In this document: piece after piece, positions 24,610 to 29,815 of the stretch
Layout: the number at the start of each line of letters is the position of its first letter
Position numbering within the stretch: position 1 is the stretch's first letter
IMG/VR virus record: IMGVR_UViG_3300005536_000011
Span: 1-35,670 of that record
DNA: 35,670 nucleotides
Source: a virus
Direction: 5' to 3' (one strand)
The notes under the pieces: model-generated
The model's input: only the letters and a program-made list of their open reading frames with translations
Told to the model about the DNA's origin: nothing
Databases searched by the model: none
Made by a program: the position numbers and the translations under genes

Positions 24610-24743
24610 AGCAAGCCGTCGCGGAAGTCGCGTTCATCTTCATCGCCACCGTCGCGACGTTCGTTGTGACGGCCGTCGGCGCTGGCGTCTGGCTCGGCCT
24701 CGTCTACCAGATTGCGCGCGGTGTTGTGGGCGCCACGCAATGA
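24606..24743 (+). CDS. Tiny membrane protein, one or two segments
   Basis: A 45-residue protein with a long hydrophobic stretch (VAFIFIATVATFVVTAVGAG then VWLGLVYQIA). Start and stop overlap the neighbouring genes by four bases. It is the middle one of three consecutive membrane microproteins. Unrecognised. Confidence 0.55.
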   Translation: MKQAVAEVAFIFIATVATFVVTAVGAGVWLGLVYQIARGVVGATQ

Positions 24744-24916
24744 AGCGCCACTACGACCTGCGCACCGGCCGCGACCGCGCCGTGTGGGACCGCGACAACG
24801 CGATCCAGATTCGGCGCCGCCGTCGGGACTGGCTGCCGGTGCTGCGCAAGGCCGTCGTCGGGGCGGCGCTCGGCTGGCTCGTGGTCGTGGCCGCGCTGGT
24901 GGGGTACCAGCCGTGA
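24740..24916 (+). CDS. Small basic protein with C-terminal membrane anchor
   Basis: A 58-residue protein: an Arg-rich cytoplasmic part (a run of five Arg near residue 25, in IQIRRRRRDW) followed by one hydrophobic helix (VVGAALGWLVVVAALVG). The positive charges before the helix predict an N-in/C-out anchor. It is coupled to its neighbours by ATGA and GTGA overlaps. Membrane tethering of nucleic acid or a partner protein is possible; function unknown. Confidence 0.55.
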   Translation: MKRHYDLRTGRDRAVWDRDNAIQIRRRRRDWLPVLRKAVVGAALGWLVVVAALVGYQP

Positions 24917-25755
24917 ACCACATCGACCTGTCCACCGTGCGCCTGGCGTCCGGCTCGCACTCCGAAGCCGCCGCGAAGAAGGGTGAGGCGTGCCTGCTCG
25001 AATGGAGCGCCATCTTCGCCGGGGTGCCCTACTCCGACCATCCCGAGTGCACGAGCCCCGTCCTCGGCGCGTTCGGGCGTGCGCTCAACGACGGCCTCGA
25101 CGACGAGCGCCGCCAGAAGCTCGTGCCGTTCATCCCGCGCCTGGTCGGCACCGCCGGCGATGCCGAGGCCGACCGGGTCCGCGCCTGGCTGGCGACCGAC
25201 TGGCTGGTGCGCACGTTCACGCCGACCTGGCTGCGCAAGGCGGGCCTCACCGAGCGAGCCGACGAGCTCGTCGCGCTGCCGGAACTGACCTCGGCGGCGC
25301 TCGCCATCGCGGCGATGCCGATCATCGAGCAGACCCGGAAGGATGCGTCCGCCGCCTGGGACGCCGCCAGGGACGCCGCCTGGGACGCCGCCTGGGACGC
25401 CGCCAGGGACGCCGCCTGGGACGCCGCCTGGGACGCCGCCAGGGCCGCCGCCAGGGCCGCCGCCTGGGACGCCGCCAGGGACGCCGCCTGGGACGCCGCC
25501 GGGGCCGCCGCCAGGGCCGCCGCCTGGGCCGCCGCCTGGGACGCCGCCGGGGCCGCCGCCGGGGCCGCCGCCTGGGACGCCGCCGGGGCCGCCGCGTCGA
25601 AGAAGAAGGGCTACAGCGCGCAATACGACGCGGCCTACAGGGCCGCCCGACCGCTGCTCGACGTGGCGCTGCGCGAGACGACCGACGAGCTGCTCGAGTC
25701 GGCACTCGCGCTGTTCGGGGAGATGTGCGACGTGCGATCGGCGGTGCCGGCATGA
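24913..25755 (+). CDS. Alanine/tryptophan tetrapeptide-repeat protein
   Basis: A 280-residue protein with a GTG start overlapping the previous TGA. Residues 1-146 are ordered and helical (ACLLEWSAIFAGVPYSDHPE; FIPRLVGTAGDAEADRVRAW). Residues 147-226 are twenty tetrapeptides of the form A-A-W-D, A-A-R-D, A-A-G-A or A-A-R-A, which would make one long helix with Trp and Arg in stripes. Residues 230-280 form a helical end. Such Ala/Trp/Asp repeats occur in actinobacterial and phage proteins of unknown function. Position in the early operon suggests a role soon after infection. Confidence 0.7.
   Translation: MNHIDLSTVRLASGSHSEAAAKKGEACLLEWSAIFAGVPYSDHPECTSPVLGAFGRALNDGLDDERRQKLVPFIPRLVGTAGDAEADRVRAWLATDWLVRTFTPTWLRKAGLTERADELVALPELTSAALAIAAMPIIEQTRKDASAAWDAARDAAWDAAWDAARDAAWDAAWDAARAAARAAAWDAARDAAWDAAGAAARAAAWAAAWDAAGAAAGAAAWDAAGAAASKKKGYSAQYDAAYRAARPLLDVALRETTDELLESALALFGEMCDVRSAVPA
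25351..25590 (+). repeat. 12-bp tandem repeat, about 20 units
   Basis: Units GCCGCC-TGGGAC, GCCGCC-AGGGAC and variants, perfectly in phase for 240 bp. The high identity between units indicates recent slippage or unequal crossing-over. All six frames are open across it, which creates false Pro/Gly-rich ORFs. Confidence 0.9.
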
Positions 25756-26957: not shown

Positions 26958-27073
26958 GCCCGTACGGGCGCAAGCCTCGACTGCGCTGCTGGGCGTGCGG
27001 CTGCCGGGCCTATCGCGTCGGGCCGTACCGGGTGTGTCGCAACCTCGACTGCGATCGGCTGGTGGCGGCATGA
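26954..27073 (+). CDS. Micro zinc-finger protein
   Basis: A 39-residue basic protein with CWACGC and CRNLDC, a Cys pattern able to hold one zinc. GTG start in a GTGA overlap; the TGA overlaps the ATG of the ERF gene. Its length is below the limit of most gene finders. It may be a partner of the recombinase; that is inference from coupling only. Confidence 0.55.
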   Translation: MSPYGRKPRLRCWACGCRAYRVGPYRVCRNLDCDRLVAA

Positions 27074-27936
27074 CGACGGACGGCCTCGGTCCCTTGGCCG
27101 CCGCGCTCGCGAAGGCGCAGGGCGAGTTCGGCGACGTGAAGCGCGGCAAGAAGGTCAAGGTGCAGCTCAAGTCGGGCGGCTCGTACGAGTTCGCCTACGC
27201 ACCGCTCGACCAGATCCTCAGCGTCGTCCGCGCACCACTGGCCAAGAACGGCCTTGCGCTCGTCCAGCTGCTCGACTCCGACGCGTTGGTGACGATGCTC
27301 ATCCACGACTCGGGCGCATCACTGGAGGCTCGCACTCCCGTCCCGTCGTCGAGCGACATCCAAGGCTACGGCTCGGCCATCACCTACCTGCGCCGCTACG
27401 CCATTCAGGCGATGCTCGGCATCGCCGCCGAGGACGACGACGACGGCAACCGCGCCGCGGGCAATCAGACTGAACCGGCCGAGACAAAGACCAGCGGTAC
27501 CGAGACGCTCGAACTGCTCGGCAAGGTGGACGTCCGCGGCAAGGCCGCGCCGGGCGGCTCGGAGCGGTACAAGGGCGACTGGCGCGAGACGCCGGACGGT
27601 GCGGCGATCGGCTTCGCGCTGCGGCGCAACGGCGACAAGGACATCCCGCAGGTGCTCGTCATCGGCGACATCGCGGACGCGTTGCGCGTGGCCGAGCCCG
27701 AGTTCATGGGCGCCGACGTCCACGTCAAGGGCCGTCTCTACGCCGTCCGGGTGCCGGGCCGCACGACGTACAACCGGCTCGTCGTGGGCGAGGCCGACGG
27801 CCACTTCATCGAGACGCCGGACGTCCGTATCCCGGCCTTGCCGGAGGCCGTACCCCTCGCCGAAGGCCAGGAGCCCCTCCCGTTCGACGCGGCCGAATCC
27901 GGGCGCTTGGACGCCGAGGAAGCGACGGCCGTATGA
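27070..27936 (+). CDS. erf: ERF-family single-strand annealing recombinase with extra C-terminal domain
   Basis: A 288-residue protein. Residues about 1-140 carry the ERF signature: YEFAYAPLDQILSVVRAPL, then AKNGLALVQLL, then SSSDIQGYGSAITYLRRYAI followed by QAMLGIAAEDDDDGN. ERF proteins pair complementary strands for phage recombination and circularisation. After an acidic linker, residues about 155-265 form a separate domain with strand pattern ADVHVKGRLYAVRVPGRTTY then NRLVVGEADGHF, similar to an OB fold, as in single-strand binding proteins. No separate SSB gene is seen, so this half may replace it. ATG overlaps the previous TGA. Confidence 0.85.
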   Translation: MTTDGLGPLAAALAKAQGEFGDVKRGKKVKVQLKSGGSYEFAYAPLDQILSVVRAPLAKNGLALVQLLDSDALVTMLIHDSGASLEARTPVPSSSDIQGYGSAITYLRRYAIQAMLGIAAEDDDDGNRAAGNQTEPAETKTSGTETLELLGKVDVRGKAAPGGSERYKGDWRETPDGAAIGFALRRNGDKDIPQVLVIGDIADALRVAEPEFMGADVHVKGRLYAVRVPGRTTYNRLVVGEADGHFIETPDVRIPALPEAVPLAEGQEPLPFDAAESGRLDAEEATAV

Positions 27937-28331
27937 GGCGCAGGACGCCGCTCAAGCCATCGCGCGGGAGCGTCTGGCCGGACGAGGTACGCGAGCACGT
28001 GCGCGAGCACCAGCGCGGCCGCTGTATCGGCCCGCTGGCGGGCATGCTCGGCCATTGCTCGCCGGGTATCGAGCTCGACCACATCCGCGCGTCCCACGGC
28101 GTCGGCATGAAGTCGGAATCCATCGCCTCCAACGCCGCGCAACTGTGCTCGTGGCACCACGACATGAAGACGCGCGAGGGACGCCGCTGGCGGCCGGTGC
28201 TCTTGGACGTGAACCGCTGGCTGTCCGGGGACTGCGCGTCGTGCCGAGCCGAGCGCGAGCCTGAGCACACGCACGTCGAGTTCGCGTTCGGCTGTCCCGA
28301 GTGCTTCGCCATTCGAGCTCGACTGACGTGA
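27933..28331 (+). CDS. HNH-type nuclease domain protein
   Basis: A 132-residue protein. The core ELDHIRASHGVGMKS, then N-A-A-Q-LCSWHHDMKTREG, matches an HNH nuclease (D-H, Asn, H-H), flanked by Cys pairs before (RCIGPLAGMLGHC) and after (DCASC, CPEC) that probably bind structural zinc. It is co-directional and coupled to the recombinase gene, unlike the two free-standing homing nucleases, so a role in recombination or DNA end processing is more likely than homing. Confidence 0.75.
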   Translation: MRRRTPLKPSRGSVWPDEVREHVREHQRGRCIGPLAGMLGHCSPGIELDHIRASHGVGMKSESIASNAAQLCSWHHDMKTREGRRWRPVLLDVNRWLSGDCASCRAEREPEHTHVEFAFGCPECFAIRARLT

Positions 28332-28600
28332 GCAACGATAGGGGGAGGGACGAACGGCCGCGCCTTCGCATGAATGGACAGGCCATGCGCACGCTCCGCT
28401 ACCTGCGCGACCACCAGGGTGCGTCGTCGCTCGAGATAACCCGCGACCTGTACGTGGTGAACGTGACGGGGAGGATCTCCGACCTTCGCGCTGCCGGATA
28501 CAAGGTGGAATGCCGCAAGGGGACGGACGGCCGCGACCGCTACTTCGTCGTGGAGCCCAAACCCGTTACGACGGGTGAGCAGACGAGCCTTGCGTTGTGA
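28328..28600 (+). CDS. Winged helix-turn-helix protein
   Basis: A 90-residue protein with a GTG start in a GTGA overlap. The sequence MNGQAMRTLRYLRDHQGASS, LEITRDLYVVNVTGRISDLR and AAGYKVECRKGTDGRDRYFV is a small winged helix: helix, recognition helix (VNVTGRISDLR), then the wing hairpin. Relatives in other phages sit in the replication region. It ends the coupled run that began at the early promoter, and is followed by a 130-bp noncoding stretch it might control. Confidence 0.75.
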   Translation: MSNDRGRDERPRLRMNGQAMRTLRYLRDHQGASSLEITRDLYVVNVTGRISDLRAAGYKVECRKGTDGRDRYFVVEPKPVTTGEQTSLAL

Positions 28601-28730: not shown

Positions 28731-28940
28731 ATGACTCTATCACCCGCCCGCGTCTGTCTGGCGTGTGAGTCGTTCCCGTGTCGCTGTATCCGCGTCCCGC
28801 TGGTGACGACGCACTACCCGCGGTTCGAGCCATGCGCCTGCGGCGGCACGATCCTCGCGCAGAGCGCCGCGTCCGTATTCGCCGCCGTCCAGTCCCACAA
28901 CGCCTCGACCGGCCACGCCATATGGCGAGCGGCCAGGTGA
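28731..28940 (+). CDS. Small Cys-rich zinc-binding protein
   Basis: A 69-residue protein with five N-terminal and central Cys (VCLACESFPCRC and FEPCACGG), enough for a zinc knuckle, and a helical end (ASVFAAVQSHNASTGHAIW). It is coupled to the initiator candidate through a GTGA overlap. No family recognised with confidence. Confidence 0.65.
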   Translation: MTLSPARVCLACESFPCRCIRVPLVTTHYPRFEPCACGGTILAQSAASVFAAVQSHNASTGHAIWRAAR

Positions 28941-29296
28941 GGGCGTACCACCGTGTCGACCCGCTCATGGACGAGCGCAAGTCGCACTACACGCCCGCCC
29001 AGTTCGGCGCGTTCCTCAAGGTGCAGCTTGTCGCCGGACGGCAGAAGCACCGGGGCCACTTTCGATCCGTGGAGGCTCTGCGCATGACGCTGCCCGCCGG
29101 CTACGCGCGCCACGTCGCCTTCCTCGTGGCCGAGGGGGACATAGCTGTCGCCGGTGACGGGACGGCGTACCTGCCCGGCTGGGACGAGTGGCAGGAAGGC
29201 GACATGACCGTCCGCGACCGCATGGCCAAGTTGCGTAACAAGCACCGTAACAACGGCGTAACCCGCACCGTAACCGGAGGCGTAACCGGTGCGTAA
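28937..29296 (+). CDS. Probable replication initiator / replisome organiser
   Basis: A 119-residue protein. The ordered part (HYTPAQFGAFLKVQLVAGRQ; VEALRMTLPAGYARHVAFLV; YLPGWDEWQEGDMTVRDRM) is of the type found in actinobacterial phage replication regions, where a small alpha-helical domain with a W-D-E-W-Q end resembles DnaD/O-like organisers. The C-terminus is a basic tail (KLRNKHRNNGVTRTVTGGV) encoded by an array of CGTAAC repeats, as the lambda O gene contains its own origin. GTG 28937 (GTGA overlap) is preferred to ATG 28922. Assignment rests on family resemblance and the iterons. Confidence 0.5.
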   Translation: MRAYHRVDPLMDERKSHYTPAQFGAFLKVQLVAGRQKHRGHFRSVEALRMTLPAGYARHVAFLVAEGDIAVAGDGTAYLPGWDEWQEGDMTVRDRMAKLRNKHRNNGVTRTVTGGVTGA

Positions 29297-29297
29297 C
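29234..29297 (+). repeat. Six CGTAAC iterons, 11-12 bp apart
   Basis: CGTAAC begins at 29234, 29246, 29257, 29269, 29281 and 29292. The spacings are 12, 11, 12, 12 and 11, about one helical turn. The hexamer falls in all three codon phases, so it is conserved as DNA and not as protein. The last copy contains the gene's TAA stop. Confidence 0.85.
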
Positions 29298-29410
29298 TCT
29301 CCGCTACAACTACGTTGTAGGGCTTTAGCGTTGGCGTTGACTGTTACGACAAAGGCTAAACGACTGGTTGGGGCAACAAGAGGCGCGCGCCTTAGCGGAG
29401 TCGTGGAGCC
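29298..29410 (+). other. Noncoding stretch after the iterons, candidate origin core
   Basis: 113 bp, clearly less GC-rich than its surroundings. It holds the palindrome CTACAAC-TAC-GTTGTAG (29304-29320), an inverted iteron GTTACG (29343-29348) and the inverted repeat TTTAGC (29324-29329) with GCTAAA (29355-29360). Together with the iterons this resembles an origin with an unwinding region. Confidence 0.5.
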
Positions 29411-29815
29411 ATGAGGACATACAGCCGAGCCGACTGGCTCGCCTCACAGGCTGCCTGGGACGACGGCGACTTTGGCTACCGCTGGCAGGCCATCCGTCGC
29501 ATCGCCGCCGACCGCGGCTTCATCTACCCGCCGTCCGGGACCATACACGACGACCGGGAGGTGGAATCACCGAGCCAACGCGCCATCGTCTGGCGGGCGC
29601 TCGAGGACAACCCCGGCAGGCTCGAGCAGATCGTTCGCCGCTCCCGTTCTTGGCACGACGTCGTGGACGGCATCATCGGGCTCGAGGATCGCTTGCGGCT
29701 GGACGCCGACGAGACGCAGCGCGAGGCCGACTGGGAGCGCAAGGACGACGCGACGCCACGCGACGCCGTCATGTCCATCGCCTCGATTCTGCGGCGCATC
29801 GGTGACTCGGCATGA
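29411..29815 (+). CDS. Conserved-type phage hypothetical protein
   Basis: A 134-residue, acidic, helical protein. The blocks DWLASQAAWDDGDFGYRWQA, RGFIYPPSGT, SPSQRAIVWRALEDNPGRL and RSRSWHDVVDGIIG form a pattern I associate with short proteins of actinophage early regions, of unknown role. It starts after the origin-like region and is coupled to the next gene (ATGA). Confidence 0.7.
   Translation: MRTYSRADWLASQAAWDDGDFGYRWQAIRRIAADRGFIYPPSGTIHDDREVESPSQRAIVWRALEDNPGRLEQIVRRSRSWHDVVDGIIGLEDRLRLDADETQREADWERKDDATPRDAVMSIASILRRIGDSA

Follow-up and report, generated by a model that had tools for sequence, protein, structure and literature searches.

The origin of phage lambda, oriLambda, lies midway along the initiator gene O and comprises tandem iterons, bound by the initiator, that are followed by an AT-rich tract (PMC7466680). 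In the Rep protein of plasmid pSK41, of the RepA_N type, an N-terminal winged-helix domain of ~120 amino acids binds four Rep boxes within rep itself; these boxes are central in the gene and encode a dispensable linker, a separate C-terminal domain is present, and both domains are DnaD-like (PMC5703833). Here, we describe a segment of viral DNA (IMG/VR record IMGVR_UViG_3300005536_000011, analysed over 35,670 nucleotides and hereafter called ‘the window’) that is likely, in our view, to be where a temperate phage starts its replication, situated within and just 3′ of its probably split initiator gene.

The segment contains six CGTAAC iterons on the plus strand (29234–29297), which start at positions 29234, 29246, 29257, 29269, 29281, and 29292, i.e. 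at intervals of 12, 11, 12, 12, and 11 bp (mean ~11.6 bp). They occupy the 3′ end of the open reading frame (ORF) at 28937–29296 (plus strand), in the frame of which the copies at 29234 and 29246 read Arg-Asn and those at 29257, 29269, and 29281 read Val-Thr; the copy at 29292 spans the end of the ORF (GCG TAA C) and supplies its TAA stop codon. An inverted copy, GTTACG on the plus strand, follows in non-coding DNA (29343–29348), and inverted copies are also frequent in homologues. A first-pass annotation of the window had described a very short iteron in six copies 11–12 bp apart at the end of this gene, in all three codon phases and followed by an inverted copy, and the coordinates bear this description out, with an iteron core of 5–6 bp. 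Only the clustering is unusual: the window-wide total of CGTAAC is ordinary (10, with 8.4 expected), for which reason enrichment by plain count was dropped as an argument, whereas six copies within 64 bp compare with a maximum of two in 100 first-order Markov simulations. The array and the inverted copy together make up 7 of the 15 occurrences of GTAAC/GTTAC in 35.67 kb, the remainder being scattered singly. A lone inverted GTTACG is also found at 28565–28570, ~370 bp upstream of the initiator gene and within a winged-helix ORF (28301–28600); it may be there by chance.

The 80 bp with the lowest GC content of the window (29290–29369; 48.75%, compared with a window mean of 67.8%) adjoin the array, and their weakest 60-bp duplex belongs to the bottom 0.02% of the window for stability. 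This stretch is a candidate DNA unwinding element. The less GC-rich stretch noticed at first pass is thus real, and the perfect interrupted palindrome reported with it is present as a hairpin (CTACAAC-TAC-GTTGTAG, 29304–29320) with 7-bp arms that is, by our own estimate, marginally beyond chance. In homologues, weak DNA at this place is only a tendency, with three of seven in the lowest tenth; the share of spans that are equally weak has a median of 0.23 for the window family and 0.15 for the phrog_9474 family, 0.5 being the chance value. Two tandem GCGTTG units of period 6 (29328–29339, plus strand) form a weak feature of the non-coding gap, and similar short period-6 runs, likewise weak, lie 3′ of the array in homologues L126, L138, and L139. 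Neither a sigma-70-like promoter nor a terminator was found near the array. The cumulative GC skew of the window reaches its minimum at ~30.0–30.5 kb, which is consistent with a nearby origin, if weak on its own.

The gene that carries the array encodes 119 amino acids if translation starts from the GTG at 28937, or 124 if it starts from an in-frame ATG at 28922. The protein has no Pfam match and a weak match to phrog_3926, a replication initiation protein family (E = 0.023; best family member, E = 0.0057). AlphaFold2, given a 17-sequence alignment, predicts a winged-helix-like fold (mean pLDDT 85, pTM 0.73), for which the best viral fold matches include replisome organisers, DUF1376 proteins, a replicon initiation protein, and helix-turn-helix proteins of Gordonia phages, all weak and none with E below 0.001; the DnaD N-domain 2vn2 (Z 4.9) and the Rep–DNA complex 5kbj (Z 4.8) score within the winged-helix background. 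A sequence search of solved structures returned only unrelated weak matches, and a search of cultured phages returned no relatives of the window protein.

Beyond the array and 114 bp of non-coding DNA lies a 134-amino acid ORF (29411–29815, plus strand) that resembles the C-terminal half of L136, a fused homologue (28% identity over 120 amino acids, E = 3e-8 in a single comparison). Because this ORF matches one half of a fused protein, the window initiator is most likely split, and the gene at 28937, described at first pass as a 119-residue initiator, is probably its N-terminal (winged helix-turn-helix [wHTH]) half and not a stand-alone initiator. That it belongs to an initiator at all, as had been proposed, is supported by the predicted winged helix, the weak replisome organiser, DnaD, and PHROG matches, and the adjacent C-domain ORF, which may serve in helicase or primosome recruitment. 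On the other hand, the scanned ORFs of the window revealed neither a helicase nor a helicase-loader gene. The surrounding early gene block encodes an ERF-type single-strand annealing protein (27052–27936, plus strand) and contains HNH and winged-helix ORFs, with a tyrosine integrase further on. Elsewhere in the window, the product of ORF 24712–25755 (plus strand, 347 amino acids) has weak PHROG matches of unknown function, and the ORF contains a long AAWDAARDAA-type repeat run at 25300–25640.

Like oriLambda, the window has tandem iterons inside a putative initiator gene and an easily melted low-GC tract adjoining them, the latter being a tendency among homologues. However, lambda-type iterons are imperfect inverted repeats of ~19 bp, much longer than the 5–6-bp core seen here at 11–12-bp spacing, and the window gene stops at its array, the C-terminal part being a separate ORF; the window protein matched no O-like family in Pfam or among PHROGs. 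As in RepA_N replicons, the array is placed between an N-domain and a C-domain, here in separate ORFs and with the N-domain protein as the putative reader of the iterons. The differences are that pSK41 has four Rep boxes and the window six hexamers at helical spacing, that the one replicon is a plasmid and the other an integrating phage, and that Pfam RepA_N (PF06970) does not match the window protein at E ≤ 1. Judged by layout, the window origin would work like oriLambda and RepA_N origins while belonging to neither by sequence. The first-pass description of an ‘unrelated version’ of the lambda-type layout has to be amended, because comparable arrays are seen repeatedly in the linkers of phage initiator families: in the epsilon15, DUF1376/YdaU, and phrog_9474/2509 initiators, too, an N-domain is followed by linker DNA with an array of a short word at 11–12-bp spacing. 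In phrog_9474/2509, this word is often the same GTAAC, but the words otherwise differ by lineage (GTCCGC, GCAATG, AGCAAT, CAGACG, and others). Comparison of the window family with phage initiator families gave hhalign probabilities of 8.6% and 1.4%, values at which a relation is not demonstrable with confidence: the second GTAAC family (phrog_9474/2509) resembled it weakly by profile, and DUF1376 (PF07120) gave neither a Pfam nor a profile match to the window protein.

Homologues were collected with the N-terminal domain alone as query, ending at 29236 and with the repeats ignored, which yielded 20 loci (16 by single sequence, 3 more by alignment, and 1 in a metagenome-assembled genome) at 38–71% identity. 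In the linkers of these loci and the window, scanned over the 330 bp that follow a conserved WQEGD, no other 5-mer is as enriched as GTAAC/GTTAC (76 copies, 2.0 expected). Two or more copies are present in 18 of the 21 loci, and 7 of 9 keep at least three once loci with N-domains ≥60% identical are removed. Their density over the initial 200 bp of the linker is 18.1 per kb, whereas the N-domain has 0.19 per kb and other DNA 0.22. Neighbouring copies are 11 or 12 bp apart in 29 of 57 gaps, and the consensus of the window family is CGTAACG-like. Individual copies are in phase 0 (RN), in phase 2 (VT), or inverted, and both phase and orientation differ between homologues. Redrawing synonymous codons from the usage of each locus gave 13.8 copies (maximum 27 in 2000 shuffles), far below the 74 observed. 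The array is therefore real and not a product of chance, because relatives keep the sites while the protein sequence changes. Two earlier expectations, namely that the constraint acts on DNA and not on protein and that the copies persist at helical spacing in homologues, thus hold. The contrary pattern, in which the Val-Thr tail is kept and the hexamers are lost, occurs at most once, at L137, where a Val-Thr-rich stretch carries GTGAC/GTCAC variants instead; L128 (45% identical) has neither array nor tail, and L129 has GTGAC, GTAAC, and GTCAC in 11-bp steps. At L137 (3250–3600), moreover, the linker encodes an HNH-endonuclease-like stretch at the place of the iterons, with the GTGAC/GTCAC repeats downstream.

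Beyond the window family, the pattern CGTAAC-N5/6-CGTAAC-N5/6-CGTAAC occurs at no fewer than 120 loci in IMG/VR and is absent from 199 Acidobacteriota genomes. These matches cannot be taken at face value: among those listed, 39 are in simple-repeat proteins, 28 are outside any ORF, and 54 are in other ORFs. The PHROG-classifiable proteins among these 54 are mostly replication initiation, primosomal, DnaD-like, or replisome-organiser proteins. Few relatives emerged from scans seeded with L113 and L021, and a second family (phrog_9474/2509) was gathered by the protein patterns MA[GY]DWIK and PGFGxAMA. GTAAC is again the top word in its linkers (221 copies, compared with 23), with at least three copies in 25 of 32 non-redundant members, numbers to be read in the knowledge that the seeds, although not the distant members, were picked for carrying it. 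The frequent gaps are 5, 7, and 12, which suggests paired inverted sites repeating each 12 bp. The distant members CP2 and CBW1004C-Prop1 of the phrog_9474 family retain GTAAC. Epsilon15 (NP_848250.1; L334, 1201–1878) and phiPSA1 instead have four copies of GTCCGC/GCGGAC at spacings of 11, 13, and 11; Klebsiella phage BUCT711 has three, at 13 and 11, and Cobetia phage Carin1 has four copies of the related TCCGCA at 11, 22, and 11. At L334 (epsilon15), L336, L337, and L338, a GTCCGC-type word sits where relatives have GTAAC, apparently as a result of iteron turnover within one initiator family.

A perfect (AGAGA)n tract, mostly of 14–28 bp, begins a short way 3′ of the final iteron in phrog_9474/2509 members (L254–L333 and also L334 [epsilon15], L335, L336, L337, and L340); period-5 runs of at least 16 bp are present in 24 of 32 linkers and in none of the 32 N-domains. 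The tract encodes REEKRREE, and its unit is AGAGG in L305 and AAGAC in L323; it looks like a DNA element because a period of 5 is off the codon step and the unit varies in concert. An interpretation of this 5-nt tract as a DnaT footprint was dropped, the structural study reporting 2 nt per subunit (PMC4132743). A further arrangement is seen in Arthrobacter phage Sonali, the gp49 of which is a 129-amino acid ‘replication initiation protein’ (L242): GCATTGC occurs twice and GCAATGC once just past the stop codon (2390–2440), and the gene order (exonuclease, RecT, SSB, initiator, 150-amino acid ORF) is comparable to that of the window. Sonali gp49 may represent a further case of a split initiator whose origin is at the 3′ end of the gene.

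A spacing signal can also be detected independently of any motif. When exact 6-mer matches are counted at fixed lags in the linkers of 31 non-redundant DUF1376 initiators, there are 149 at lag 11 and 144 at lag 12, with 54–71 at lags 22–24, 18–36 at lags 33–36, and only 0–4 at lags 9, 10, and 13–17. A pair at lag 11 or 12 is present in 27 of the 31 linkers, compared with 13 N-domains and 4 downstream regions. Lag 6 is high as well because of a separate hexanucleotide tract, which can feed lag 12 but not lag 11; since 11 is not a codon multiple, protein repeats fail to explain the spacing signal. The L162–L241 linkers have lineage-specific words at 11–12-bp lags, often together with period-6 tracts (CACCTT, CACAAT); such tracts, which encode PSPSPS-like stretches, are found in 16 of the 31 DUF1376 linkers and in none of the controls. 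GTAAC was rejected as a universal phage iteron, the array being present in 2 of the 31 DUF1376 relatives and Rac YdaU having other repeats. In the ydaU linker of the Escherichia coli Rac prophage (L161, 5510–5580), GTTCAAACA occurs twice and its inverse TGTTTGAAC once, which makes these repeats a candidate initiator site in a cryptic prophage of K-12.

Other readings of the window array have to be weighed. The Arg-Asn/Val-Thr tail could be a functional low-complexity linker, with the DNA repeat as a by-product, as in TGNVTGN repeat proteins, which match the search pattern too and illustrate the simple-repeat class noted above. Forward copies within the ORF do always read RN or VT. Yet phase and orientation vary among homologues, synonymous shuffles fall short of the observed count, one copy is a stop codon and another lies inverted in non-coding DNA, and a spacing of 11, again no codon multiple, is frequent; this protein-level explanation is already contradicted and, in our view, scarcely credible. 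The array could also be a set of operators, on which a wHTH protein mainly represses or times its own operon while replication begins elsewhere. Many phage wHTH proteins are repressors, the 28937 protein has a predicted wHTH fold, and the sites fall between the two halves of an operon. Against this, the sites are not at a promoter: the window has them at the 3′ end of the gene and most homologues have them mid-gene, and the neighbourhood is devoid of a sigma-70-like site. Annotations of families that share this layout name initiators, primosomal proteins, or replisome organisers, a DnaT domain being present in some, and the weakest DNA of the window adjoins the sites. We regard the operator reading as unlikely.

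It is very unlikely, finally, that the sites are read by a host protein or a different phage protein, in partition, packaging, or recombination, and not by the initiator. An ERF annealing protein encoded nearby does indicate a recombination module, and plasmid centromere arrays can have comparable spacing. The word, however, tracks the initiator lineage, being GTAAC in the window family, GTCCGC in epsilon15 and its relatives, and others in DUF1376 families. A word that varies with the initiator is unlike the site of a conserved host factor, which should stay constant, and the presence of a tyrosine integrase means that a partition site is not needed.

As a replication origin, the segment might function as follows. 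The first ~100 residues of the 28937 protein, predicted to fold as a winged helix, would bind GTAAC, and six sites 11 or 12 bp apart would let copies of the protein line up on the DNA. The bound row would strain, and possibly melt, the least stable DNA of the window, which is located directly 3′ and holds the inverted site, after which the protein encoded at 29411–29815 would bring in the host replicative helicase. More speculatively, protomers bound in a straight line would leave the DNA underwound, because the mean spacing of ~11.6 bp exceeds the 10.5-bp helical repeat.

A known origin is the exception among uncultured temperate phages. Here, a candidate has been placed within ~100 bp, and both a putative binding word and its putative reader protein can be named, in a family without a Pfam model. 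We consider the wider pattern across phage initiators to be more interesting than the window array itself, and in the open-access literature, to which our search was confined, no description of the motif or of a general design was found. Such a design, which we put forward as a possibility rather than a probability, is that winged-helix phage initiators of many lineages encode the origin in their linker as a lineage-specific word repeated each 11–12 bp. Equally tentative is the addition that a short tandem tract often follows (period 5, AGAGA, in phrog_9474; period 6 in DUF1376). The natural exchange of GTAAC for GTCCGC, with similar geometry and within one family, makes recognition specificity directly testable, and the motif-independent spacing signal offers a simple computational handle on phage initiator origins. 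If the general design is true, a spacing beyond the helical repeat would cause the bound row to underwind the DNA, the tandem tract would serve in strand opening or loading, and for a large share of temperate phages both the origin and the specificity of the initiator would follow from the linker sequence alone.
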